DNA from: Spirochaetes bacterium GWB1_36_13
Lineage (GTDB): Bacteria; Spirochaetota; GWB1-36-13
Assembly: GCA_001829155.1 (NCBI GenBank)
Contig: MIAO01000095.1
Location: forward strand, 1-44,524
Reading direction: 5' to 3'
Length of the DNA stretch: 44,524 bases
The notes beneath the pieces were generated by a model. The model was not told the origin of the DNA. It saw only the letters and a program-made list of their open reading frames with translations, and ran no database searches. Shown here one piece after another: positions 15,304 through 44,432 of this stretch (position 1 is its first letter; every line of letters starts with the position of its first letter). The translations under genes and the position numbers were made by a program.

Positions 15304-15386
15304 AAAAATATTGACTTTTTAAAAAATATTTTTTTATTTGATTATAAAGACATTTGGTATAAAAGAAAAATTTGAGGGGTATGAAA

Positions 15387-18300
15387 ATGGGCAGCAAAAA
15401 AATTATCAGCTTATGGATTCTGGTGAGCTTCTTCTCATCAATGATCGCTCCGAATATCTTCGCAGCGTATGATTATCAAAAATACAATCAAAAAAAATTG
15501 ACAGAACTCTTTGACAGGGCAAAAACAGCCAAAGATGAAGGCGTTTATCAGCAGATTGTCAATACAGGGCTTTCTGTGATCGAAGCGGGATGGGAACAGG
15601 ACTTTGACGCTTATATCAAAGAGCAGGGAATCGACCCGCAGCAGGCGCTTCTGGAAAAACAGGAAGAGCAGAAAAAATTAAAACAGGAACTTGCCGATAA
15701 GGCGGCGCAAGAACAGAAAAACTGGAAAATCAAACAGGAAGCAAAAAAAATTATTGAAGAACAGAATGGTCAAATTCAGGAATTTCAAGCCGGAATAGAG
15801 ACAAAAGTAAAAGACTATATTCTTCAGTACTACGATGGCCGGGACGAAGGGATTAAAAATCTTTTTAATCAATATCTGGAAACTGAGGCAAATACCTCAA
15901 AAACCGAACTGTTAAATACTTTAAAAGAAAATCTTCAGACCAAACTGGCCAATCTGGAAGGCTATCATGACGGGATTGACCAGACTGTGGATGCGGTTTA
16001 TAAAGAATGGGATATTGATTTATCCAATATATTAATCCGGAATAATAATAAATTTAATACAGAAACCAGTATGGATATTTATTCTCTGAAAGCAAATGCT
16101 GAAAAAGAGGATGCGGAGCTGGTAGTGGGCAATGTATTGAATCAGACCCAGTCAGGACTCAAAACAGTTGAGAGCAATATCTTTGACATGATTCAGAATC
16201 AGGTCAATTTTCAGGAAGCAGGAAACGGAAGCTATGCTGAAAACATTTCTATCGAACTCCGGAAAGAGCTGGAGAAAGGGATTAATCTCTGGAACCAGGC
16301 AAGACAGGATCTGGTCAATCAATACGAGCAAAAACTTCTGGCTGGAAACCAGCTTCTGGAAACAGGAATTCAGGAATGGGAAAATGTATTTGAAAAACTC
16401 CTGAAAGAAAGAAATACCTGGATCGAGAAAACCCGAAGCCAGATTGAGCAGGGTTTTGCAGAATGGGAAAATAAAACCAATGAAATGAATGCTAATTTTA
16501 CAGATATTCAAAATAAATTAAGCGAATATTTAAGCGATAAACAGGAAAACTGGGAAACTTATGGTCAGCAGGTTTTCCAAAACCTTGCCTCTGCCAATTC
16601 CATGGTCAGCGATATTGAGAAACAATTGGTCTGGATGGATGAGACTGTGAAAGGAAGACAGGTTCAGATTGCGGATGAGCTGGCACAGAAAAACGCTCAG
16701 CTTACCTCAGTGGTGAATAACGGGCAGTATGTTTTTAAAAATAATGAAAATGCAGTGGTTGTAACCAGCCGTGATTTTACTGCGCAGGAAATTTATAGTT
16801 CGCCCTTAATGGTCAGAGTATTGGGATATAATCCAATGGACTATATTATGGCAGGTTTTTGCTGGGATATGGGGTGTGTTCCCGCTATTCCTCCCGCCTA
16901 TGCGAATTACAGTCTTCCGGGAAATACATGGGCGACTGGAAACGGGACAAAAACACAGTATTACTGTAATGGGTATCCGATTGCAGACCCGCAAAGTTGT
17001 TCTTACTCTGACTTTCCAGGAGTTTTAACTTCATCGGTTGTAGCCGATCCTACTGTCATGAATGCAAGTGTGAAACTGGCTTATCAAGAATTACTGGGAA
17101 TGAACTATGTCATGGTGAATGGGCAGCCTGTTTTACAAGTTCAGGTCAATGAAGCTTTTGGCAGCCGCTGGGTAAATACTGGAGGGGTTTGGAAGCTTTC
17201 TGCCGATGGAGTCAGTTATAAAAAAACTACTTACCAGATCAGTGTGGATCAGGCAAACCACCTAATGCTTCTATCCGGAGCTGTCAATAATGCGGGAATG
17301 ACCAGTGTTGCCAGATGGATGGAAGAAATTCAGGTATATCAAAACGAAAAAGTGAATGTAACGAATTTGAGAAACCAGCTTCTCACCAGTTTTGCTTCTA
17401 TGGAAGATATGTATCTGAATCAGGGATTAAATCCCTACAATCAGTCTGCAGCGGATGGGGTTTTATCCAGCGAGACAGCCAATAACAGCGATATGTATAT
17501 GATGAGCAATGCCGAGTTTGAGTTTGAGCAAAGTAAAAATGAATATGAATATTTCAGAAAAAGACTTCTGATTGCTCAGGCAGTTTATGAGTATGCGGCG
17601 GCAGACAGCAGTTTGAGAGATACTGCGGCTGAAACGCTTCAAAAAATGCAGAATGCACAGCAGGTTCTCCAGACAAAGAAAAACGAGTATAATAATCTGA
17701 CTACTCTTTTAGGCAGCTTTGAAAACGGACAGTATCAGACCGAGTATCAAAAACAAGTGATCACAACACTTCCAAATGGAGAAAAAGAAGTTTCCTATGT
17801 GACGGAAACCCTGACTTTAGAGGCGCTCCGGCAGCAGGTAGCGGCAACTCAAAGTGATATTCAGGCTATGATTACGGCGCTGGACGGAACCGATCAGACA
17901 GATGGATTAAAAGATCAATACAACAATCTTTTAAAACAGATGCTTCTGGCACAGAATGCAAGCGTGAAGGAAGGGTATAAAAAAGAAGGATTTACAGCCT
18001 ATTCTGATTATACAACATTGATTAATGATTATTTTGATGCAATCAGCAGAATTAATTTTAACAGGGGAAGTGAAGGGACTTCTTTTCTTCAGAGTGTTTT
18101 CGGGAAAGAATCAGCCTCTAATCAAAATCCAGATACCCTGACCCGGGAAAACGGGGTGATGGAATCTTATGTGTCATCCAAAAACCAGCTGGCTCAATTT
18201 ACTTCTTTTACCGGCTACAACAACGGGTTCTTAAAAACTGCTTTCAGCTATCTGGATTCAGCTTCAATAGATTATGAAAACCAAAGCAAGCTTTCCAATA

Positions 18301-21300
18301 TGCTGGGAGTCAGCGTAGAAAATCTGAAAACTTATTATGCCGGCGACTGGAATGCTTTGAATCAGCATCTTTATCAAAGTTACAACAGTTTAAAAGCCAA
18401 TTACAGCAATCTTGAGACCGGTGTTTCTTATATTTACGATAAGTATGTTTCCGGATCGGCTCAGGCGGTCAGCATCAGCCAGGCTGTGGTAGATTCAATT
18501 GCAGTTAAGGAAAATAATCTTACAACTTCTCTTCAAAATACTATCAGTCAGTCTGTTGTTGATATTTATAGTGAAATGGAAACCAATATTATTGCCGGAA
18601 TTGAGGCTACTCTCACCGGAAAAACAGGCACTGTTAAAACAAAACTAGAATCTTTAAAAGATAATTTTACTTTAGAAAAGAAATTTACTGCGGATGATTT
18701 AAAGGCTTACGCATTAAGTTTAGGTTTAAGCTCTTTAATATCGGACGAACTGGAAACAAACCTTTTAGCCAGCGGTCTTGTTTCAGATTATGACACATTA
18801 AAACAAAATATCAAAAATCAAGTCTCTGCAAATCCTGAAGATGCCTTGATGAATGGGTTTATTGCCGATCAAATTCAAACTTTTCTGGAAACAGGAAGCG
18901 GGGTCAATGAATCCGAACTGAAAACTAATTTTACTTATCTTTACAATGTTTTTGAAAATCAGTGGGATAATCTTCTGGATTCCGCGTTCTTAAGCCTGAT
19001 GAATGAATTTGAGCATAACGCGAAAAATTTCAATGCCCGGACTCTGGATCTGAATATGGAAGATGAAAATGGGGCGACGACTGAAAACAGCATTATCAAT
19101 TCCGCAAAAACTCTGGTAGAAAAAGTGGTTGCCGGCGAAATCCCTTTGACCTCCGATATCCAGTCTCTTTATGAAAATGCGGTTGAGAAAATGACTCTTT
19201 ATGTCCGTTCAGGTGGAACAGAACTTTCCGGCTGGAAATATTTGTCTGCGATATCTGATCCGGCAGGCAGAGCTCCTGAAATAGAGACTAAAATGCAGAT
19301 GTATTCTCTGCTATTAAACTACAATCCAGCCACAGTAACCAATAGTTTGGATTATTTTGCTTTTCAAGATCAGGCAGCTTTTGATAACTATCTTGCCAGT
19401 GACTTGTTTTTTCAGTCAACTTATACGGCTCTCCAAACTGCTGAAAAAAACAGTCTGCTGAATTTGAAAAAGGCGATTGCAGAGCAATTGGATCAACTGG
19501 ACGGAGAGTATTATCTGGTTCGGGCGGCTTCTCTCACTTCAGTTCCTTCGGTTTCTATGAAAGAGAGTATAGAAGTTTTAAAAACCTGGGATGCTTCTCA
19601 GGTTACGGTTCAGGGATATACGGCTTTGATTCAGAATGCTTCAAATGCGGTCGAAGAAACAAAAATCACCTCATTTTATCTTCTGGCAGAGTACCTCCAG
19701 AGAATAGAAACTATTGTCAATCAGGCAGGAGTAGAGTCTGCAAAACTGAAAGTCGGCAGCATTATCGGGTCGCTTGTATTCAAAAATGGAGACGGCTCTT
19801 TCAGTTATAAACAAAGTAATGTTCTCGGTCTTCAAATTGATGCAAATGGACAGGTTCAATCTGGTTTTTCTTTAAACACTTTTACACAAGACCAATTTCA
19901 GACAGAAATGAATCAGCTGAATCAGACTATTCAGGCAATGGATCATAAACTTCAGCTGGCTGACGAAGCATCCGGTAAAATCAAGAAAAGCATTCAGAAC
20001 TATCAGGCAGCTGTAGATTCCAATACTCAAGGGCTGGAAGAAATCCAGAATGCGATTGATGCAAAGTGGAAAGAAATCCAGGAAAAAGACGCGGCATTGA
20101 AACTGCTCAATGAAAAAATGGATAAAATGCAGGCAGGTCTGAATCAAACCCATGCGTATTATATTGATCTGATGAATCAGATTGATAATCAGAATAAACA
20201 GGTGGAAGATGCCAAGCTTCAATACGATATTGCCTATGAAGTCTATGAATATGCCAATACCCCTTATCTTCAGGCAGAAGGGGAAGAGTCTTCCAGAGTG
20301 GATGCGAAACAGGTTTATGAAGAAGCGCTGGCAAAATTCACAGACTCAGAAACCCGGTACAATCAGCTGAAAAATGAACTGGCGGTCGATTCTGATCCAA
20401 ACTGGCGGGCAAGATATGTGGAAGCTAAAATCAATGAGCTGAAAAATAATCCTGAATACATGAGCCGATGGACCACTTATGAAAATCAGGTAGATGCTTT
20501 GGTTTCCGCAAGCAATCTCTTGCAGGCAGTTGAGCAGAGAACCCAGTCTCTCCAAGCTTCTGTGGATGCGAAAAAAAGCGAAGTGGATACTTATGTCAGC
20601 CAGATGTTCGGCTATCTTTCAACCGACAAGATGATTGAAGCGCTGGGAGAAGACCTTTATGAAGAGTTTATCGGGAAAATGGGATCTTATAGTTTCAATA
20701 ACTATCTTTATGCAATGGACCGTTATTATCGAAACACTTTGGCTCAAGTGGATAAAAACGGAAATGTGGCAGAGCAGCTCCAGAGGATTTTTTCAGCAGG
20801 CGGGACAGGAGACCCCTATGGAATTATGGGAATGCTGCAGGAAGTTTCCGGCGGGGATATAGAAACATGGAACGGTGCTACTTACACTGTAACAAATTGT
20901 TATCCGAATTATAATGCTCAAGGGGAGTTTATAGGAGGAGAAACTTGTGTTAATACCGTATTGCCTGATAACAGAAAACAGCTTATTTACAATATGCTTT
21001 CTCAGAATGCAGCGACCAGCCATGTGCATCAGAGTCTGGGCGAGGGATATAACGATGATACCCTGACAGCAGTGTTTAGCAAACTCAGCAGTTATCAGGG
21101 ACAAAATCTGATGGGGCAGTTTGATTTTTATAAAAATTATTCAGACCTCTATCTTCAGTATTTGGGAATGATGAACCGCGGGGGAGCGGTCGGAAAAGAT
21201 TCTTCCGAGATTAACGGGTTTCTTGAAAAATATAAAGATGTTTTCGGGAATAATCTTTGGAGTCCCGGTTATTTTCATATGACTGGAACCAATTACAAAG

Positions 21301-24300
21301 CCAGAGAACACTGGTATCAGGCTAAAGCTCAGCCGTTTTACAAAGTATGGCTGGGTGAAGGGCATGTGATCCATAACTATGCGATGGCAAGATGGAGAGC
21401 CGATGTAGATTGGAATTATAGAGTGCCGAATTCCACCCGTGTGGCGAATGTTGAAAAATATACCCATAAAGAAAAACTGGCGTATCAGGATTTACACTCT
21501 CTTCGGACAGCCTTGGAATCTGAAAGCAAGTTTCAGCTGAACCTGGCTGATATCGATGTCAATGATCCGGCTGATTTAAACCAGCTTCGGGATAAACTGG
21601 CTGCCTGTCTGGGAGTTTATAACCAGCAGGGAGAATACACAAAAGCGATTCAAATCATCGGGGCTTTAAATGCGGACAATGATTTAGACAAACTCCTTCT
21701 TTCACAGACTTTTTCTGAAGTGACTCTCAGAGGAAAAAGCGGCTATGAAAACGGAAAAATTGACTTCAGTTATATGCTTTCATCCGCAGTGAAAATTCTT
21801 TCAGGGCTTAACAGCCGGTCTATTGGAGATATGAAAGGGTATATGAGAGAAAATAATCTGGATGAAACCCTCTTTTTAAGAGAAAGACTGGCTTTGATTT
21901 CTGATAAGGCATGGGGACCTTCAGAGAGTCAAAAAATATCGGTGGTACTCGGCAATGCTTCTAATTTAAGCGGAATCCCAAATACCAGCGGAAATCTGAC
22001 CACTACCATGAGTTTTTATCACAGACAGTCCAGTATTTACAATACACTGACTCAGGATATGATTTACGGAAAAAGCCAGGATTATGAAAACGGTTATGAA
22101 GAAGGAATCGGTCAGGAATCATTTCAGCTCATGATTTCTCAGCAGGTCCGGCTGAAACAGCAGGAATGGGGTATCAAGCAGTCTGAGTTTTATCAGGATC
22201 AAAATCAGTGGAAAGAAAAAGTCTATGAGATTTTTGACAGAGGGGTAGCAGCCTGGGATCAGGAACTGAATCGTTTTAAATCAGAATGGCAGACTTGGAT
22301 CGATACCACAAAAAACAAAATGACAAAACTTGAATCGGCTGCAAAAGTAGAGTTGGCTTCTTTTGATAAAAAAGCGGCTGACTGGGCATCCAAATCTTAT
22401 GAAAATGCGGCTAAGGGAATCGCGGTTGAGTTTTCTCAGGATCAAATCGATGCAGTGAAATCTAAAATGACGGAAGTGATTGAAAAAAGTGTTGATTTCG
22501 GAAGTAAAGAAGACCTGAAAACTCAAATCGATAAAATGAGTCAGGATGTGCTTTCCAAAACCAGCTCGCTGGGGATCCCTTCTTTTATGTTTGATAAGGC
22601 GAAAATGGCGGATACCAATTTTACATTCAGCATGATGAAAGACAACAATCTTTTAGGCGCAATGCAGAATCAGATGGGCGCAACCTTGAATCAGTATCAG
22701 GCGACTATTGCCAAAATGAATAACCTGAAAATCATGGAAAATATGGAAAAACTGGTGAAACAAAGCCGGGATTCCATCATTAAACAGGATCAGGAGTATT
22801 TTGACAAAGTAGTTCCGGGATTTATGAACCGTGAATTTGGCTACCAGTTTAACGGTTCCAGTTATTATCGGGAAGTAGTAGAAAGTGTTACTTTGATTGG
22901 AGTGGATTATAAGACTCAGTATATCGGGGCTTATCAGAAATATAAAGTACCGGATGTGACCATAGATATAAAAGTACTAAATAAAGATCGTGATGTGGTA
23001 CAGTTTAGCCCTTCTTCAGTAGTAGAACTTTCAGATATCGAAATGAATACAGTTTATGATATTGCTACTGCTCAAGTAAATTTGCAAATTGAAAAAATTG
23101 AAAAAGAATTCCAAGAAAATGTAGATAGACAAATTAGCTCTGATGAAGGAGCAAAGGGAATAATAATCCAAGCTGTAGAAGCTCAGGAAGAGGAAAGAAT
23201 CAAAGCGGAAGCGGGTTTTTCTGCAAGTTTTTGGGATATTCCAATTGCTCCTGGATTCCCTTTAAGTATTGGAAGCATTACCAAAATAGCGGCTTCTATT
23301 GTGTTGACTGCTACTGGTGCCGGTGCTTTATTGGCAGCTGGAATAATGGCGACCATGTCTTTTACCGAAAGTATAGCCAGAGGGAATAATTTCTGGTCTG
23401 CACTGGGCGGAGCTACGATGCAGTTTGCAACTTCTATGATACCGGGTGGAGATACTATATTGGGAAGTATTGCGAGTAATTTTGCCAAATCAACTTTGAA
23501 TAATGTAGGCGGGCGTCTGTTATCTGGTCAGGGATTCAGTAGCTGGAAAGATTTTGGAAATATGATGGCAGGAAGTGCTGTTCAAGGAATAGCAGGAGGT
23601 TTAACTTCTACTATAGGGAAAGGTGATTTTCTTGGAGGACGAGAAGGTGGTTTCTGGTCAAATTTAGGCTCTACTGTTATAAGAGACACAACAACAGGAG
23701 CACTGGGGGGAATCTCTAATCGGTTAGTTTCAGGTGAAGGTTTCGATGGTTGGAAAGATTTTGGAAATGTAGTGGGATTAGGTGCTGCAAAAGGAGCTAT
23801 TTCAGGAACAGCTAGAGGCTTGGCAACGGGTGTTGTAAATCAAATCAGAATTGCAGGTAATGGAAAAAGTCAATGGGATGTTGTCAATCAAACTAGAAAT
23901 TATCAAAAAGGGAGTGCCTGGAATACTTTTGCGGCAAATTTAACTGATAAGGCGATCAATGGAATTGGAAATGTTTTTACAAACGAAATAGACCGGGTAA
24001 GTTTAAAGTATGAGATGAAAAGAAAGAATCCAAAGATAAGTGATGCAGAAATTGAAAAGGCTTTAAACGATAAAGGGGACTGGAAAAAAGCAGTCATGAC
24101 TCAGACAAGTGAAATTATCGTTTCTGGAGTGAAAGATCTGACCATTATGGGAATTAATGGATTAGCAGATACAAAATGGAGCGAAAAAGACGGTAAATAT
24201 AAAACGGATGAGGGGAAAAGTAAATCAGAACAACAATATTATAATAATTCTCTACAAAGTTTTGCGGGGACTTTAGGAGAGGTCGGAGGAAGATTAGGGG

Positions 24301-25121
24301 CTAATCTTGTAATAAATGCTATTGCAAATAATGATAATTATAAACTAGATGTTTATAAATTTAAATTTTCTCATGTAACTGATACATTGGGCTTTCTGTG
24401 GGACGCGGGAGCAAAAAAAACAGTTGAAGAAGAAAAAAAAGCAGAGCAGGATGCAGCGAATAAAAAAACTGAAGAAGCAAATACTCAAACAAAAATCAAT
24501 GTCGATCAAAAAAATGAAGAAGTAAATGCTCAAACGCAAGCCAATGGAGGTCAAAATCTTAAAAAAGAAAAAACGGAGAACGGATTCTTATCTTCTGTAG
24601 GAAATTGGCTTGTTACAGCAGGAAAAAATGTAGGAAATTGGTTTGTTACAGCAGGAAAAAATCTCTGGGCTACAATTACGGGGGAAAAGAAAATGGAAGT
24701 TTGCAAGAATGGTTATGATTCATCTGGAAGATGTACCGATAAAGGAAGGGATCCATTTGATTCAACTAAAGACGGTAATGGAACTAGTGAAATGAACTTC
24801 TTTCAAGCATATCAATATTATAATGAAAAAAACAGGAATTTTACCCACAATTCACAAAAAAATCCATACGATATTTGGAGTACAATTAAGTCTTTTGCTT
24901 TTAAAGCAGATGATTTTGAAGCAGCAGTAGGTTGGGCTGCAAATGAATTTATAGAAGATAGATATTATTTTAAAGAAAAAAATATATCAGAATCTAGTCT
25001 CAGAACAAAAAAAGATAGTGAATTAAAGGCAAGTGAAGAGAGAATTAAAGAATTAACAAAGAAAGCTTTAGATAAAGATAAGTATGAACTGAAAAAAAAC
25101 ATCTATTCAAGAATTTACTAA
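15387..25121 (+). CDS. Giant (~3,240 aa) secreted coiled-coil protein; resembles my recollection of the Leptospira 'TIGR04388' large-protein family
   Basis: Uninterrupted 9.7-kb ORF. Start ATG 15387 with GAGGGG SD. Signal peptide GSKKIISLWILVSFFSSMIAPNIFA^AYDYQ. Long Gln/Asn/Glu-rich coiled-coil body with Trp-containing helical blocks. Gly/Ala-rich hydrophobic region, then AT-rich charged tail. Family assignment is from memory. Confidence 0.85.
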   Translation: MGSKKIISLWILVSFFSSMIAPNIFAAYDYQKYNQKKLTELFDRAKTAKDEGVYQQIVNTGLSVIEAGWEQDFDAYIKEQGIDPQQALLEKQEEQKKLKQELADKAAQEQKNWKIKQEAKKIIEEQNGQIQEFQAGIETKVKDYILQYYDGRDEGIKNLFNQYLETEANTSKTELLNTLKENLQTKLANLEGYHDGIDQTVDAVYKEWDIDLSNILIRNNNKFNTETSMDIYSLKANAEKEDAELVVGNVLNQTQSGLKTVESNIFDMIQNQVNFQEAGNGSYAENISIELRKELEKGINLWNQARQDLVNQYEQKLLAGNQLLETGIQEWENVFEKLLKERNTWIEKTRSQIEQGFAEWENKTNEMNANFTDIQNKLSEYLSDKQENWETYGQQVFQNLASANSMVSDIEKQLVWMDETVKGRQVQIADELAQKNAQLTSVVNNGQYVFKNNENAVVVTSRDFTAQEIYSSPLMVRVLGYNPMDYIMAGFCWDMGCVPAIPPAYANYSLPGNTWATGNGTKTQYYCNGYPIADPQSCSYSDFPGVLTSSVVADPTVMNASVKLAYQELLGMNYVMVNGQPVLQVQVNEAFGSRWVNTGGVWKLSADGVSYKKTTYQISVDQANHLMLLSGAVNNAGMTSVARWMEEIQVYQNEKVNVTNLRNQLLTSFASMEDMYLNQGLNPYNQSAADGVLSSETANNSDMYMMSNAEFEFEQSKNEYEYFRKRLLIAQAVYEYAAADSSLRDTAAETLQKMQNAQQVLQTKKNEYNNLTTLLGSFENGQYQTEYQKQVITTLPNGEKEVSYVTETLTLEALRQQVAATQSDIQAMITALDGTDQTDGLKDQYNNLLKQMLLAQNASVKEGYKKEGFTAYSDYTTLINDYFDAISRINFNRGSEGTSFLQSVFGKESASNQNPDTLTRENGVMESYVSSKNQLAQFTSFTGYNNGFLKTAFSYLDSASIDYENQSKLSNMLGVSVENLKTYYAGDWNALNQHLYQSYNSLKANYSNLETGVSYIYDKYVSGSAQAVSISQAVVDSIAVKENNLTTSLQNTISQSVVDIYSEMETNIIAGIEATLTGKTGTVKTKLESLKDNFTLEKKFTADDLKAYALSLGLSSLISDELETNLLASGLVSDYDTLKQNIKNQVSANPEDALMNGFIADQIQTFLETGSGVNESELKTNFTYLYNVFENQWDNLLDSAFLSLMNEFEHNAKNFNARTLDLNMEDENGATTENSIINSAKTLVEKVVAGEIPLTSDIQSLYENAVEKMTLYVRSGGTELSGWKYLSAISDPAGRAPEIETKMQMYSLLLNYNPATVTNSLDYFAFQDQAAFDNYLASDLFFQSTYTALQTAEKNSLLNLKKAIAEQLDQLDGEYYLVRAASLTSVPSVSMKESIEVLKTWDASQVTVQGYTALIQNASNAVEETKITSFYLLAEYLQRIETIVNQAGVESAKLKVGSIIGSLVFKNGDGSFSYKQSNVLGLQIDANGQVQSGFSLNTFTQDQFQTEMNQLNQTIQAMDHKLQLADEASGKIKKSIQNYQAAVDSNTQGLEEIQNAIDAKWKEIQEKDAALKLLNEKMDKMQAGLNQTHAYYIDLMNQIDNQNKQVEDAKLQYDIAYEVYEYANTPYLQAEGEESSRVDAKQVYEEALAKFTDSETRYNQLKNELAVDSDPNWRARYVEAKINELKNNPEYMSRWTTYENQVDALVSASNLLQAVEQRTQSLQASVDAKKSEVDTYVSQMFGYLSTDKMIEALGEDLYEEFIGKMGSYSFNNYLYAMDRYYRNTLAQVDKNGNVAEQLQRIFSAGGTGDPYGIMGMLQEVSGGDIETWNGATYTVTNCYPNYNAQGEFIGGETCVNTVLPDNRKQLIYNMLSQNAATSHVHQSLGEGYNDDTLTAVFSKLSSYQGQNLMGQFDFYKNYSDLYLQYLGMMNRGGAVGKDSSEINGFLEKYKDVFGNNLWSPGYFHMTGTNYKAREHWYQAKAQPFYKVWLGEGHVIHNYAMARWRADVDWNYRVPNSTRVANVEKYTHKEKLAYQDLHSLRTALESESKFQLNLADIDVNDPADLNQLRDKLAACLGVYNQQGEYTKAIQIIGALNADNDLDKLLLSQTFSEVTLRGKSGYENGKIDFSYMLSSAVKILSGLNSRSIGDMKGYMRENNLDETLFLRERLALISDKAWGPSESQKISVVLGNASNLSGIPNTSGNLTTTMSFYHRQSSIYNTLTQDMIYGKSQDYENGYEEGIGQESFQLMISQQVRLKQQEWGIKQSEFYQDQNQWKEKVYEIFDRGVAAWDQELNRFKSEWQTWIDTTKNKMTKLESAAKVELASFDKKAADWASKSYENAAKGIAVEFSQDQIDAVKSKMTEVIEKSVDFGSKEDLKTQIDKMSQDVLSKTSSLGIPSFMFDKAKMADTNFTFSMMKDNNLLGAMQNQMGATLNQYQATIAKMNNLKIMENMEKLVKQSRDSIIKQDQEYFDKVVPGFMNREFGYQFNGSSYYREVVESVTLIGVDYKTQYIGAYQKYKVPDVTIDIKVLNKDRDVVQFSPSSVVELSDIEMNTVYDIATAQVNLQIEKIEKEFQENVDRQISSDEGAKGIIIQAVEAQEEERIKAEAGFSASFWDIPIAPGFPLSIGSITKIAASIVLTATGAGALLAAGIMATMSFTESIARGNNFWSALGGATMQFATSMIPGGDTILGSIASNFAKSTLNNVGGRLLSGQGFSSWKDFGNMMAGSAVQGIAGGLTSTIGKGDFLGGREGGFWSNLGSTVIRDTTTGALGGISNRLVSGEGFDGWKDFGNVVGLGAAKGAISGTARGLATGVVNQIRIAGNGKSQWDVVNQTRNYQKGSAWNTFAANLTDKAINGIGNVFTNEIDRVSLKYEMKRKNPKISDAEIEKALNDKGDWKKAVMTQTSEIIVSGVKDLTIMGINGLADTKWSEKDGKYKTDEGKSKSEQQYYNNSLQSFAGTLGEVGGRLGANLVINAIANNDNYKLDVYKFKFSHVTDTLGFLWDAGAKKTVEEEKKAEQDAANKKTEEANTQTKINVDQKNEEVNAQTQANGGQNLKKEKTENGFLSSVGNWLVTAGKNVGNWFVTAGKNLWATITGEKKMEVCKNGYDSSGRCTDKGRDPFDSTKDGNGTSEMNFFQAYQYYNEKNRNFTHNSQKNPYDIWSTIKSFAFKADDFEAAVGWAANEFIEDRYYFKEKNISESSLRTKKDSELKASEERIKELTKKALDKDKYELKKNIYSRIY
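23460..23850 (+). repeat. Two ~68-69-aa imperfect tandem repeats inside the giant protein tail
   Basis: LGSIASNFAKSTLNNVGGRLLSGQGFSSWKDFGNMMAGSAVQGIAGG versus LGSTVIRDTTTGALGGISNRLVSGEGFDGWKDFGNVVGLGAAKGAISG. Identical 18-mer TGGAAAGATTTTGGAAAT at 23544 and 23751. Confidence 0.85.
24597..24662 (+). repeat. Near-perfect 33-bp tandem duplication in the giant gene
   Basis: GTAGGAAATTGGCTTGTTACAGCAGGAAAAAAT followed by GTAGGAAATTGGTTTGTTACAGCAGGAAAAAAT (1 mismatch); encodes VGNWLVTAGKN VGNWFVTAGKN. Confidence 0.95.
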
Positions 25122-29562: not shown

Positions 29563-31806
29563 ATGAAAAAAAACTTATTTCTTCTATTTTTATTTTTTGT
29601 TTTATCGGCGTGCTCGGGAAAAAACATTCTTGATTTTAAGAACCCGGATGTCAAAGATTCTTATCCGCAAAATAACGCAATGGGAGTGGATAATAATGCG
29701 AAAGTTTGGGTTTTATTCACGGAAGATATGGATAAAAATCTTGTGGAGCAGTCTCTTTCTTTAAGCGAGGAAGATTCCGGAAGCAAAGTTGATTTCCAGA
29801 ATGTGTGGGAAGGGAGTAAAAAGATTATTCTCACCCCTGACCGTCCTTTGAAAACTTCAAGAAAATACAGGCTTTACCTGAAAGAAAGTGCGGCAGATGG
29901 AAACGGAAACAAACTGAGTGTTCCTTTTATTCTGGTTTTTACCGTCAATTCTGATAATACGCTTCCTGCAGTTTCTTCCCTTACGGTTCAAAATCTCACA
30001 GAGGGGACGGGGATCGTGGTGCCTTATATCACTCCTGCCAATATGAATAGCATGGACTGGAAGCCTTTGATTACGATTCAGTTTTCAGAAGCGATGGACA
30101 CGAATCTGGCAGTTGCCGGACTGATTCTTCAGGATATGCCGGCTGAATATGAATGGCAGAATTCTGATTCAACCCTTCTGATTCATCTGACCCGTAAACT
30201 CGAATACGGTAAAAAATATACTGTTATGATCAATCCGACCGTGACTGATAAAGCGGGGAACAATCTCAGGGAGCAGTTTACAAAAGAATTTTATATCGGG
30301 AATGATTTTACGCATCCGGAAGTTTTGTCCATGATCCTGAGAGATGGAGCAAATTCTCCGGTAGAAATGGTTTCAAACAGCGCTATAGCAGAAAATATCA
30401 GTAAAACAACTCCTGTTCAGTTTACTTTTTCCAAACTGATGGATAGGGCTTCTGTTCAGACTTCTCTTTCTCTCTCGCCTGATCTGAATTATACATTGAG
30501 CTGGAGTGAAAATGGGACCCAGGATGTCCTGACTCTGACTTTATTTGAAAACAATGAGTTTGATTTTGGAAAAACCTATACAATTACAATCGGAAAAGAT
30601 GCCAAAGACAGAGAAGGCAATACTTTTTTAGAAGATTTTAAAAAAGTGTTTCTGATTGGAACCGATTATCTTTCTTCAAAAATCACAGCTATATCGGTGG
30701 TGAATACTTCCGGAAGCGCTCAAAATATTCTGGAAGGGGATGTGGTGAAAAACATTCCTTTAAAACCGGTAATAACCCTTGTTTTTTCCAAACCGATGCA
30801 GGCTTCTTCCACCCAGACAGCCGTAAGTTTTACACCCTCGATTTCAAGTTCGCTGATTTATTATTCCTGGTCGTCTGATTTAAAAACCCTGACCGTTACA
30901 GTGGATGAAAAGCTGGATTATGGGGAGCTTTATCAGATTTCTGTCAGTTCCAATGCAAAGGACAGCACTGAAACGGTGACTCTGGATAAAACCTATAAAG
31001 GATTTTTTTATATCGGGGATCCGACTGATTTTCTTGCACTGGACACGGCTTCCCCTGTTGTAGATTTAAACGGGGGGACATGGCCCAATGCGGTTTCTCT
31101 GACACCCAGCCTGAAAATCACCTTTAATAAAACCATTTCCCCTGAGAGTGTGGTAGATAAAATAGAAATTTCCCCCAGTATCACGATTAAGCGGGAATCG
31201 GTGGAAGTCAGCGGGAATTATATTCTCCTTCATATTCCTCAAGATACTCCTTTATCTGCCGGCACAACCTATCAGCTGAAAATCCTGAAAGATATCTCAG
31301 CGGACAATGTATTGAAGACTCCGATGGCGGAAGATGAAATCCTTTATTTTACAACAGGCAGTTCTGAAGAATTTAAGATTATGAATCTCTGGCTGGATGT
31401 TGATAATAGTGGAACCAAGAATTCAGGGGATGTCGTTTTTATTAATAATGGAATAAAATCTTTTCCTGATACTTTTACCAGTAAAGTCAATGTCCAGACA
31501 GACGGGTCAAGCAATAAATACCTTTACCTCTATATTGAATTTTCAGGCGTAATAAATCCGGATACAGTTTTTAACTCGATTTCCCTGACCAAAGAATCGG
31601 GGAGCGGCAGTATTAATCCGATTCTGCAGAATCATGAATTTCTGCCTTCCATCCAGAATGCGGTCAAAGTCAAAGTACAGCTTTATAAACTGGATTCTCC
31701 CGGTTTTTATTACAGTGTCAAAATTTCAGGGTTGGAATCAGGGATTAAAAGCAGTACAGGAATCGCTTTGCCTGAAAATGCGGTAGTTGTTTTCGGAACC
31801 CAGTAA
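29563..31806 (+). CDS. Lipoprotein with multiple Big_5/SbsA-type Ig-like domains
   Basis: Lipobox LFFVLSACSGK. Repeated DSYPQNNAMGVDNNAKVWVLFTEDMD…, PLITIQFSEAMDTNL…YGKKYTVMINPTVTDKAGNNL, PVQFTFSKLMDRASV…FGKTYTITIGKDAKDREGN, PVITLVFSKPMQ…. Confidence 0.88.
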   Translation: MKKNLFLLFLFFVLSACSGKNILDFKNPDVKDSYPQNNAMGVDNNAKVWVLFTEDMDKNLVEQSLSLSEEDSGSKVDFQNVWEGSKKIILTPDRPLKTSRKYRLYLKESAADGNGNKLSVPFILVFTVNSDNTLPAVSSLTVQNLTEGTGIVVPYITPANMNSMDWKPLITIQFSEAMDTNLAVAGLILQDMPAEYEWQNSDSTLLIHLTRKLEYGKKYTVMINPTVTDKAGNNLREQFTKEFYIGNDFTHPEVLSMILRDGANSPVEMVSNSAIAENISKTTPVQFTFSKLMDRASVQTSLSLSPDLNYTLSWSENGTQDVLTLTLFENNEFDFGKTYTITIGKDAKDREGNTFLEDFKKVFLIGTDYLSSKITAISVVNTSGSAQNILEGDVVKNIPLKPVITLVFSKPMQASSTQTAVSFTPSISSSLIYYSWSSDLKTLTVTVDEKLDYGELYQISVSSNAKDSTETVTLDKTYKGFFYIGDPTDFLALDTASPVVDLNGGTWPNAVSLTPSLKITFNKTISPESVVDKIEISPSITIKRESVEVSGNYILLHIPQDTPLSAGTTYQLKILKDISADNVLKTPMAEDEILYFTTGSSEEFKIMNLWLDVDNSGTKNSGDVVFINNGIKSFPDTFTSKVNVQTDGSSNKYLYLYIEFSGVINPDTVFNSISLTKESGSGSINPILQNHEFLPSIQNAVKVKVQLYKLDSPGFYYSVKISGLESGIKSSTGIALPENAVVVFGTQ

Positions 31807-31823
31807 AGAAAGGAATACAGGTA

Positions 31824-34115
31824 ATGAAAAAGTACTTTTTATTTGTTTTTATTTTTATGTTTTTTTCCTGCAAGTCTTTTCTGTTTCAAGACAAAGAAAG
31901 ACCTGAAATTATTGCTTCCTATCCTTCTGTCAATCATGCGGTTGTTCCGAAAGACGGTACAATCTGGATCAAATTCAGCAAGGCGATGGATGTGAGTGTT
32001 TCTGAAATGGCTTTTTCTATTCAGGACGCTTCGGGTACAAGCGTGCCGGGGAGGATTGACTGGGAAGAAGGCGATACCAAACTGGTTTTTAAACCTCTAT
32101 CCTATTTGAGCGCAAACGCGAAATATACTTTCGGGATCAGTAAAACAGCAGAGGACACCAGCGGGAACGATTTAAAAAGCGAACTAGTCTTATCGTTCTA
32201 TGCTGTGGGAAAACAGGATGAAAGACCGAAATGGGTTCCTTCGCTTTCCTCTTTCTCGAAAATGGTTTCAGGGACTTCTCCTTTTGTCATTCCTGACAAT
32301 GCAATTGTCAAAGGAGTGGACAAAGACTCAAAGATAAGCCTTTGTTTTACCAAAGCGATCGACCCCGCGGCAATTTTAAGCGGAGTATCGATTTCTCCTT
32401 CTTTCGCTTATTCGCTTCTTATGACCAATTCAGACACGGTGATTGAGATTACTCCAAACAATCCTCTGAATTATGGAGAAACCTATACTATTACGATGAG
32501 TGAAGGATTGAAAGATACGGTGGGAAACAAGCTTTATGAAGAAAAAAAAGTGATTTTTACAGTAGGAAATGATTTCATTGTCCCTAAAATCTCTTCGTTT
32601 TACCTGATCAATTCAAACCATAGTCTGCAAAACAGAGAGCTTTATTTCTTTGATTATATCGCAGAAGGCATGAATCTGACACCTTCTTTTGTCATTACTT
32701 TTAACAAGGCAATGGATCAGGAAAAATTTGCCGCGCTGTTTTCATTTTCGGTTCCCTATCGTTTAACTTGGGATGCTTCGGGAATGGTATTGACAGTTAC
32801 CCTCCTTTCTTCTTTAAGTGAAGGTTCTACTTATAAAATTAATTTTGACACCAATATGAAAGACTCAGCAGGAAACACTCTGGACAAAGATTATGAATAC
32901 AGTTTCAGAATGGGAAGCACTGCTGTGCCTCTTTCTATCTCTTCACTGACGGTGGACAGCGCTGATTTATTTACTTTGAAGGAAACCACATTAAATAATC
33001 AGAAACCTTCTATTGTTATTACCTTCAATAATCCGGTTCTTCAAAGCAGTTTTGCCGAGAATTTTTCAATCAGCCCTTCAATTAATAATAAAGATTATCA
33101 ATGGAGCAATGGCGATGCGGTCAATGGCTATAAAACAGTCACGGTGGTTTTTTATGAAAATCTGGACTGGCATACCCGCTATACCCTGACTTTTTCCAAA
33201 GATATGACAGACAAAAGCCTGAATAAGATGGTTGAAGAAAAAGTCTATTACCTGAACATCGGGAATGACTATACCAAACCGTCTCTTACAAAAATCGAAA
33301 CAGTGAATGGAACAGAAAGTCCTTCTGTACTGCTTTCTCTCTCCCCTGTGATTTCGTCCAACTGCAATGCGGATCCGGCTTTTTGGGATGATTTCCGGCA
33401 CTGTATTGAGAGAAGCGATCAATTTCAGTTTGTTTTTTCAGAATCGATGGATATAAAAACTCTTCGGGATAATATCAAATTTATTTCCTATGATTCAGGG
33501 CAAAGTGTTTCTTTTTTAGTCACAGAGGTCAATTCCACTACTTATAAATTGATGCCTCAGGAACTTTTGACTTCAAGCGGCAGATATGAAATTGTTTTAA
33601 ATCAGGATTTAAAAGATATACAAGGGAACTCGCTTGCAGGCACTTCTCAGGGAACTTATCGTTTCCAGACAGATGCCAATAATTCAAGCTCTATCGAGGT
33701 AACCGAATACGACCAGACGGGCGGCGGCACAAAAAGCAAAATCTGGAAATATCCGAATGCAACCCATATCTGGGAAGTGTTTCCGAATTACGGATCTTTG
33801 GCTCTTTCATCCAATAAATCGGTGGACATCCTTGCTTTTCACTTAAATAAAGAACCCGATCCTTATACGGTAAGGCAGAATATCAGCATCACTTCAGTTT
33901 CCGGTACAGGCAGCGTCACTCTTTCATGGGATAAAATAAGGGTGGAGCAGAATGGAACAGGGAGCGACTGGATTATTTATATTGATGAGATTGACTTTGG
34001 AACAACTCATGACAGTTTTTATAAAATGACTCTTTTAGGAGGATCAAGCGGAGTGAAAGATAAATACGGAAATCAGATGAAAAACAACTATACTGTTTAT
34101 TTTCAGTTGCAGTAA
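31824..34115 (+). CDS. Paralogous multi-Big_5/SbsA Ig-like lipoprotein
   Basis: Lipobox FIFMFFSCKS. IIASYPSVNHAVVPKDGTIWIKFSKAMD, ISLCFTKAIDPAAILSGVSISPSF…YGETYTITMSEGLKDTVGNKL, FVITFNKAMDQEKF. Confidence 0.88.
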   Translation: MKKYFLFVFIFMFFSCKSFLFQDKERPEIIASYPSVNHAVVPKDGTIWIKFSKAMDVSVSEMAFSIQDASGTSVPGRIDWEEGDTKLVFKPLSYLSANAKYTFGISKTAEDTSGNDLKSELVLSFYAVGKQDERPKWVPSLSSFSKMVSGTSPFVIPDNAIVKGVDKDSKISLCFTKAIDPAAILSGVSISPSFAYSLLMTNSDTVIEITPNNPLNYGETYTITMSEGLKDTVGNKLYEEKKVIFTVGNDFIVPKISSFYLINSNHSLQNRELYFFDYIAEGMNLTPSFVITFNKAMDQEKFAALFSFSVPYRLTWDASGMVLTVTLLSSLSEGSTYKINFDTNMKDSAGNTLDKDYEYSFRMGSTAVPLSISSLTVDSADLFTLKETTLNNQKPSIVITFNNPVLQSSFAENFSISPSINNKDYQWSNGDAVNGYKTVTVVFYENLDWHTRYTLTFSKDMTDKSLNKMVEEKVYYLNIGNDYTKPSLTKIETVNGTESPSVLLSLSPVISSNCNADPAFWDDFRHCIERSDQFQFVFSESMDIKTLRDNIKFISYDSGQSVSFLVTEVNSTTYKLMPQELLTSSGRYEIVLNQDLKDIQGNSLAGTSQGTYRFQTDANNSSSIEVTEYDQTGGGTKSKIWKYPNATHIWEVFPNYGSLALSSNKSVDILAFHLNKEPDPYTVRQNISITSVSGTGSVTLSWDKIRVEQNGTGSDWIIYIDEIDFGTTHDSFYKMTLLGGSSGVKDKYGNQMKNNYTVYFQLQ

Positions 34116-41461: not shown

Positions 41462-43171
<1,710 letters not shown>

Positions 43172-43189: not shown

Positions 43190-43222
43190 CTCTGCCGGAT
43201 TTCTTTCCGGCAGAGATTTTTC
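43190..43222 (+). terminator. Rho-independent terminator of groEL
   Basis: CTCTGCCGGA-TTTCTT-TCCGGCAGAG followed by ATTTTT. Confidence 0.92.
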
Positions 43223-43264: not shown

Positions 43265-44038
43265 ATGATTAAAAAAAAACAGACGGTTTCAGCGAAGCTT
43301 ATTTCAGAAAATTCATTTTTCCCGTTTGCTGTAAGAAGAGCGAGGTTTTCCAAACTCTATGATTATGATCAGAATAAATTTTTTGATTTCTGTCTTTTTC
43401 ACGGGCAGGTTGTTTTAGGCTATAGTCATCATTCGATTCGGAGAGCTCTTAAAAATTCGTTGAGTCGCGGATTTACAAATGGATATGAAACTCATTTAAC
43501 CAGCAAAGTGAAAAAAATGCTCCAAACCCTTTTTCACTATCCTTTTGTGAATTTTTTTCATTCAAAAGAGAATTTAAGCGCTTATTTAAAGCTTCATCAT
43601 CGTTCAGATGAGATGCTTGATAAAATATCCAGTCTTCGAAACCCTTTAAGTTCTTCAGAAAAACCTCTTCTTCTGGATGCTTCTGTTTCAAACGCTTTTC
43701 CTGTTTTAGTTTTACTTTCTCATGAAAACCTTGCGCCTTTCCAAGATGATCCTGTTTCTGTTCTTGCGCTGGAGAGCATGAAAGTAGTGCTCGAAGAATA
43801 TCAAAAACCATTCTGGGAGAAAACATTTGACGGACTTTTAAAACCTTTTCAACGGGAATTGGAAAATCTGGGGGGCGGTCGTTTTCAATTAAAAAGCGGC
43901 ATAAAGGCAAAAGAAGTGAGTGAAAAACTTTTTGAAAATTGTATTTTCGTTCATCCTGAACAAGAAGTTTTTTATCTGGCTCAAAACACAGAGCCTCATC
44001 AGGTCAAATACCTTGTCAAAGTTTTATCAAAGATTTAA
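43265..44038 (+). CDS. Truncated HemL/class-III aminotransferase-like protein lacking PLP-site motifs (putative pseudoenzyme)
   Basis: FFPFAVRRARFSKLYDYDQNKFFDFCLFHGQVVLGYSHHSIRRALKNSLSRGFTNGYETHLTSKVKKML matches the GSA-aminotransferase N-terminal pattern. C-terminus LFENCIFVHPEQEVFYLAQNTEPHQVKYLVKVLSKI matches its C-terminal pattern. 257 aa only. Confidence 0.6.
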   Translation: MIKKKQTVSAKLISENSFFPFAVRRARFSKLYDYDQNKFFDFCLFHGQVVLGYSHHSIRRALKNSLSRGFTNGYETHLTSKVKKMLQTLFHYPFVNFFHSKENLSAYLKLHHRSDEMLDKISSLRNPLSSSEKPLLLDASVSNAFPVLVLLSHENLAPFQDDPVSVLALESMKVVLEEYQKPFWEKTFDGLLKPFQRELENLGGGRFQLKSGIKAKEVSEKLFENCIFVHPEQEVFYLAQNTEPHQVKYLVKVLSKI

Positions 44039-44090: not shown

Positions 44091-44432
44091 ATGCCGGTTC
44101 TTTTAAAAACAGCTTTTTTATTGGTTCTTTCCAATGTCTTTATGACTTTTGCATGGTATTCCCACCTCAAAAACCTCTCAGCCAAAAAATGGTATATTGC
44201 GGCTCTGGCAAGCTGGGGAATCGCTTTGTTTGAATATTTGATACAGGTTCCTGCAAACCGGATCGGCTACACACAATTCAATCTGGGACAGCTGAAAATC
44301 CTTCAGGAAGTGATTACTCTTGCTGTTTTCATTCCTTTTGCCGTTATTTATATGAAAGAACCTTTGAAGCTGAATTACCTCTGGGCAGGGCTTTGTCTGG
44401 TGGGGGCGGTTTATTTTGTATTTAAAGCATGA
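44091..44432 (+). CDS. DUF486/DMT-type small membrane protein
   Basis: TAFLLVLSNVFMTFAWYSHLKNLSAKKWYIAALASWGIALFEYLIQVPANRIGYTQFNLGQLKILQEVITLAVFIPFAVIYMKEPLKLNYLWAGLCLVGAVYFVF; SD AGGAGG upstream. Confidence 0.85.
   Translation: MPVLLKTAFLLVLSNVFMTFAWYSHLKNLSAKKWYIAALASWGIALFEYLIQVPANRIGYTQFNLGQLKILQEVITLAVFIPFAVIYMKEPLKLNYLWAGLCLVGAVYFVFKA

Follow-up and report, generated by a model that had tools for sequence, protein, structure and literature searches.

The window analysed here, a 44,524-nucleotide stretch of DNA from Spirochaetes bacterium GWB1_36_13 (contig MIAO01000095.1), carries near its end an intact open reading frame (ORF) of 257 codons on the forward strand (43265..44038), which starts with ATG and has the extent given in the first-pass annotation. 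Homology, alignment, phylogeny and fold prediction characterize its product as a dead, shortened class III aminotransferase, a pseudoenzyme probably derived from HemL. Upstream on the same strand lies groEL (41519..43171, named from its own sequence), and because the intrinsic terminator of groEL (43190..43215, forward strand; 10-bp stem, T tail, z = −3.2) stands between the two genes, groEL is regarded as an incidental neighbour. A link to the chaperonin through a groEL operon was considered and discarded, given this strong terminator and a neighbourhood that is not common even to the relative found in the same order. Downstream, a DUF486/DMT_6 membrane protein is encoded (44091..44432, forward strand; Pfam PF04342, E = 5.5e-46). 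Elsewhere, the window holds a very large Gln-/Asn-rich ORF of 3249 aa with helical-looking stretches (15372–25121), as well as two tandem lipoprotein-like ORFs of 747 and 763 aa with IxFSxxMD-type repeats (29563–34115), with ORFs resembling an efflux adaptor and an RND transporter on either side.

Both ends of the protein had initially been read as following the glutamate-1-semialdehyde (GSA) aminotransferase pattern. For the N-terminus this is borne out by the HemL profile comparison proposed at that stage: residues 19–87 (RRARFSKLYDYDQNKFFDFCLFHGQVVLGYSHHSIRRALKNSLSRG..., 43319..43525, forward strand) match positions 30–98 of TIGR00713, the profile of HemL (glutamate-1-semialdehyde 2,1-aminomutase), at E = 4e-10. 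The C-terminal small-domain block (LGGGRFQLKSGIKAKEVSEKLFENCIFVHPEQEVFYLAQNTEPHQVKYLVKVLSKI, 43865..44035, forward strand), on the other hand, is not detected by single-sequence profiles and emerges in family alignments and in the predicted fold. The window protein scores 38.9 bits against TIGR00713, short of the curated cut-off of 527.3 bits, and 15.5 bits (E = 0.0072) against PF00202 (Aminotran_3), short of 30.5 bits, and HemL chains in the PDB match it by sequence at an E of about 1e-5. The same genome (an assembly of 3.04 Mb in 151 contigs, 93% complete) does encode the full-length hemL (535 bits, above the cut-off) that the first-pass annotation suggested looking for, together with argD and bioA, all on other contigs. 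With the true enzymes located elsewhere, the window ORF represents an extra, shortened relative.

Alignment with the HemL of the same genome and with homologues reveals what has become of the catalytic motifs. SGTEA, the phosphate-binding motif, is absent from the window protein and HSKENLSA stands in its place, within the remnant FFHSKENLSAYLKL (43553..43594, forward strand); the correspondence originally drawn between SGTEA and HSKENLSAYLKL is right. The segment LLLDASVSNAF had been taken for the region of the PLP-ring Asp (DEV), an assignment that has to be dropped: it aligns with LGKIIGGG, the PLP-lysine segment of HemL. A bridging series that runs from HemL (LGKIIGGGLP) through the homologues L035 (FGTIIGGGFP), L036 (GGNSIANGLS) and L034 (LSPAIANGLE) to the window protein (LLDASVSNAFP) identifies it as a remnant of the lysine segment. 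That segment, previously thought to be missing, persists as KPLLLDASVSNAFPV (43661..43705, forward strand), with Ala139 at the position of the lysine of LGKxIGGG, and it is the whole DEVxTGFR (Asp) region that has been deleted. The window protein resembles HemL in its N-terminal block, its C-terminal block and its overall predicted fold, but it lacks the PLP lysine, the DEV Asp region and SGTEA and is about 170 residues shorter. A few N-terminal positions (Y32, D41, G52 and K63) show little or no variation. Judged by the lost motifs, the protein would be non-catalytic in practice, and no catalysis is expected of it.

The enzyme shape, as far as prediction goes, has outlasted the motifs. AlphaFold2, supplied with 56 aligned family members, gave a model of the window protein with a pLDDT of 87 and a pTM of 0.85, which Foldseek matched in the PDB to class III aminotransferases including HemL (best E = 1.3e-12, others to about 1e-11, TMq 0.62–0.76). 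The enzymes of PF00202 (ArgD, BioA and ornithine aminotransferase) share this predicted fold (Foldseek E = 1.3e-12), whereas the window protein falls below the Pfam cut-off and has none of the catalytic residues. A Borrelia-like homologue, modelled from its own alignment (pLDDT 85), also matched HemL (E = 1.3e-7). The models predict that the class III aminotransferase fold is kept, that the N- and C-terminal parts would pack in an enzyme-like manner, and that the large PLP-binding domain has lost much of its extent.

A retained shape might still serve a retained pocket. MocR regulators put a fold-type I scaffold to use as an effector-binding domain, and this precedent, along with the few near-invariant N-terminal positions, would suit a small-molecule pocket working as a ligand sensor or as a PLP-independent catalyst. 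We consider this unlikely, although worth bearing in mind, as the short forms have lost all three cofactor motifs together with much of the large domain that surrounded the pocket, and the remaining conserved residues sit in the structural N-terminal block, outside the former active-site motifs. The likeness to MocR lies in the non-metabolic use of a fold-type I aminotransferase domain; MocR regulators differ in possessing a DNA-binding domain, which is absent from the window protein, and their aminotransferase domains usually keep the PLP lysine.

Conserved orthologues of similar length, another of the checks first proposed, are found throughout the phylum. A Spirochaetota metagenome-assembled genome from another family of the same order (JAKPDD010000026.1) encodes a 280-aa relative with 35% identity to the window protein over its whole length, and it was the sole hit when named genomes were searched. 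Phylum-wide profile searches, combined with reading of the loci, yielded 77 Lys-less ORFs of 249–477 aa, a number that includes some genes retrieved more than once; the PLP lysine is replaced or missing in every one, and the short members lack the Lys, Asp and SGT motifs altogether. The pseudoenzyme family occurs in at least 25 of the 54 sampled Spirochaetota families (f1, f2, f3, f5, f8, f14–f17, f19, f23, f25, f28, f29, f33, f34, f36, f38, f41, f42, f44, f48, f49, f52 and f54 in our labelling). Maximum-likelihood analysis places all 60 Lys-less rows in a single clade adjoining the HemL rows (support 97/78, recovered in 96% of bootstrap trees), a unity that could be exaggerated by long-branch attraction, and the window protein pairs with its order relative at 100/99. 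HemL is the probable ancestor. The earliest branches of the clade are L120 and L122 (458–477 aa, Lys replaced by Glu or Gly) and L035 (359 aa, Lys replaced by Thr), beyond which lengths fall between 249 and 398 aa. The genes of L120 (6237–7613) and L122 (6097–7530) encode full-length HemL-like proteins in f17, with a response regulator gene close by, and they are the least degenerate dead forms found. Vertical descent is further supported by the gene order pseudoenzyme–membrane protein–uvrD–rimO, common to f29, a family left out of the maximum-likelihood tree, and several others.

Pairwise dN/dS, whose calculation had likewise been suggested, ranges from 0.065 to 0.38 among 16 Borrelia-like orthologues (f36), which indicates that the gene is constrained by purifying selection there; the values come from these relatives only, the window gene having none close enough. 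The window protein is far shorter than HemL, as a recently truncated or decaying hemL pseudogene would be. Against this stand its intact ORF, the 280-aa relative in another family of the order, the presence of short homologues in 25 or more families and the Borrelia-like dN/dS below 0.4, and since short orthologues are conserved across the phylum, a recent deletion is hardly credible. Full-length orthologues had been named in advance as the sign of such a deletion; what the family presents is a gradation of dead proteins, full-length at one end and short at the other, all without the lysine. The original proposal of a shrunken HemL-like pseudoenzyme kept by selection has thus stood up, with motifs lost, predicted fold kept, short orthologues phylum-wide and low Borrelia-like dN/dS. 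We conclude with high confidence that the product of the window ORF belongs to a family of pseudoenzymes found across the spirochaetes, which has the class III aminotransferase fold and descended from HemL; its members gave up first the PLP lysine and later much of the large domain, and selection has conserved them. No dedicated Pfam or NCBIfam model for the family was among the matches seen, and no study of it was found in the open-access literature under its gene names or under class III pseudoenzymes.

The Borrelia-like and Treponema pallidum-like genomes bear on function. In the former, the gene order is eno and then rpsI-rplM-pseudoenzyme-gatB-gatA-gatC-uvrD, an arrangement we take to be that of Borrelia, so that the pseudoenzyme would presumably be BB0340, a locus number inferred from gene order. 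In genome G055, mglB-2 lies near the pseudoenzyme gene; this genome presumably corresponds to T. pallidum, where gene counting would make the pseudoenzyme TP0678 and the neighbouring membrane protein TP0679 (both numbers inferred). The one literature match to ‘Tp0679’ calls that antigen TmpB and was not taken to describe this gene. In the tested genomes of both kinds, PF00202 detected either nothing or the pseudoenzyme alone below the cut-off, with 14 of 14 controls positive. The pseudoenzyme appears to outlive the active enzyme in these reduced genomes.

As an example of a non-catalytic role, the first-pass annotation had offered regulation of, or partnership with, true HemL. A pseudoenzyme that joins a true class III aminotransferase as regulatory partner or pseudo-subunit, comparable to the dead subunit of serine palmitoyltransferase, would accord with the closest homology of the family, which is to HemL, and with the presence of true HemL, ArgD and BioA in the window genome. 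As a general role it does not hold: the pseudoenzyme is retained in genomes resembling those of Borrelia and T. pallidum, where no other class III aminotransferase is detectable, which excludes such a role in those lineages, the gene was never beside hemL in the loci read, and its recurrent neighbour is a small membrane protein. The partner reading is therefore improbable for the family, and a HemL-related role is possible in the window's own genome alone.

BB0340 has been cited as a (methionine) sulphoxide reductase (PMC3147059; PMC5013056), and this antioxidant label is all that we found for it in the open-access literature. Taken at face value, these two reports would make the family reductases, a reading we give virtually no credence: a Borrelia-like orthologue has no MsrA or MsrB match in Pfam, only a weak one to Aminotran_3, and structure comparison of its model returned class III aminotransferases. 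Should the locus number belong to a different gene, the label would have no bearing here. In loci L079–L082, the gene between rplM and gatB is the likely BB0340, and neither Pfam nor the predicted fold lends support to the reductase label. The label of the likely Borrelia orthologue is thereby put in question.

A recurrent companion of the pseudoenzyme gene encodes a small membrane protein of about 97–126 aa, usually with three hydrophobic segments and probably a three-helix protein, which matched no Pfam model and has the consensus AFxAILLWSKxR...LY...LLxxxGI. Its gene lies directly downstream of the pseudoenzyme gene on the same strand in 24 distinct genomes, mostly overlapping it or separated by less than 65 bp, with wider gaps in L043, L047 and L098 (140–200 bp) and in L135 (1.4 kb). 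The two genes are neighbours in 13 families (f3, f5, f8, f16, f19, f23, f29, f38, f41, f42, f48, f52 and f54), and the membrane protein occurs as a single copy per genome in 75 of 296 genomes; examples of its gene are L083:8159–8452, L038:4978–5277 and L124:1937–2239, with others in about 70 more genomes. Of the loci read that contain it, most have it immediately after the pseudoenzyme gene. As a blind check, the membrane protein by itself was used to retrieve 20 loci, mostly from genomes in which no pseudoenzyme had been recognised or found adjacent, and 11 of them had a family member directly upstream (E of 1.1e-5 or better). Other genes stand upstream in f31, f50 and two f42 genomes, where no pseudoenzyme is adjacent. 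In f7 and f18, the upstream position is taken by proteins of 410–555 aa (L156:4171–5838, L158:4398–5660, L159:2800–4314 and L160:4273–5505), those of f18 with faint family signatures (FIKNYFSKGF and DIYLFGDNLSxGxGKN); they are possibly an expanded, more diverged branch of the family.

Searches did not find the membrane protein in the window genome, its order relative or the tested Borrelia-like, f15, f25, f33 and f34 genomes, although a short, diverged protein can escape such a search. No gene for it lies next to the window pseudoenzyme, and for this reason the partner, present in 13 families, is not taken as defining the family. The DUF486 protein of the window was tried in this place and rejected, as hhalign against the partner profile gave a probability of 0.1%.

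Housekeeping genes recur around the family as well. The helicase gene uvrD/pcrA occurs near the pseudoenzyme gene in 10 families, as a rule right beside it but about 1.5–3.5 kb off in f36 and f19; gatA/gatB lie close by in f36, f19 and f16, and farther off in f28, with gene overlaps in Borrelia-like genomes; and rny, named from sequence, directly adjoins the pseudoenzyme gene in f25 and f33 and, for the most part, in f34. All of these may reflect shared housekeeping operons. The pathway of the ancestral HemL begins at glutamyl-tRNA, which, together with uvrD in 10 families and gatA/gatB in four, could point to an accessory factor of GatCAB (the Glu-tRNA amidotransferase) or of the UvrD/PcrA helicase. 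Neither gatCAB nor uvrD is kept beside the gene in the window, the order relative, f5, f15, f25, f33 or f34, and because both are common housekeeping genes the linkage may be hitchhiking, so that such a role seems rather unlikely.

Retention across much of the spirochaete phylum despite the loss of the catalytic parts suggests that the ancestral enzyme shape has probably been put to a new, non-catalytic use. The best overall explanation, which we advance tentatively and at somewhat less than even odds, is that the HemL-derived pseudoenzyme acts as a non-catalytic cytoplasmic adaptor, linked to the membrane where the partner exists. The kept N-terminal hairpin and C-terminal small domain would form a cytoplasmic protein-binding scaffold, possibly dimeric since the parent enzymes are dimers, and this scaffold would be tied to the inner membrane through the small protein, probably of three helices, whose gene comes directly after that of the pseudoenzyme in many lineages. 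Where that partner is lacking, as in the window's order and the Borrelia-like genomes, the pseudoenzyme may act alone or with another partner. The mechanism itself, including binding to the membrane protein, is a slightly more doubtful proposition drawn from gene adjacency and predicted structure, and as uvrD and gatCAB are also nearby, the adjacency may in part reflect a shared housekeeping operon. More speculative, and on balance doubtful, is a vertically inherited two-part system throughout the phylum, in which the shrunken dead HemL adaptor and the three-helix membrane protein would serve a spirochaete-specific function in the envelope or in cell organisation, with the dead HemL surviving even where genomes are reduced, as in the Borrelia-like and T. 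pallidum-like organisms.

Dead relatives of PLP enzymes are a known kind. SPTLC1/LCB1 of serine palmitoyltransferase and antizyme inhibitor are such relatives, devoid of catalysis and conserved for protein binding, and in this the spirochaete pseudoenzyme resembles them. They pair with or mimic an active paralogue, however, whereas here several genomes have none that is detectable and the fold has been cut down. To our knowledge, pseudoenzymes among PLP-dependent aminotransferases are few and usually occur beside an active paralogue; the spirochaete family departs from that pattern by shrinking across a phylum and by lasting in genomes with no detectable active paralogue. The series of lengths, from 458–477 through 359–398 to about 250–340 aa, offers a natural record of how an enzyme shrinks after catalysis is lost. 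Furthermore, a set of uncharacterised but conserved spirochaete genes now becomes a defined family with a predicted fold and a candidate membrane partner.
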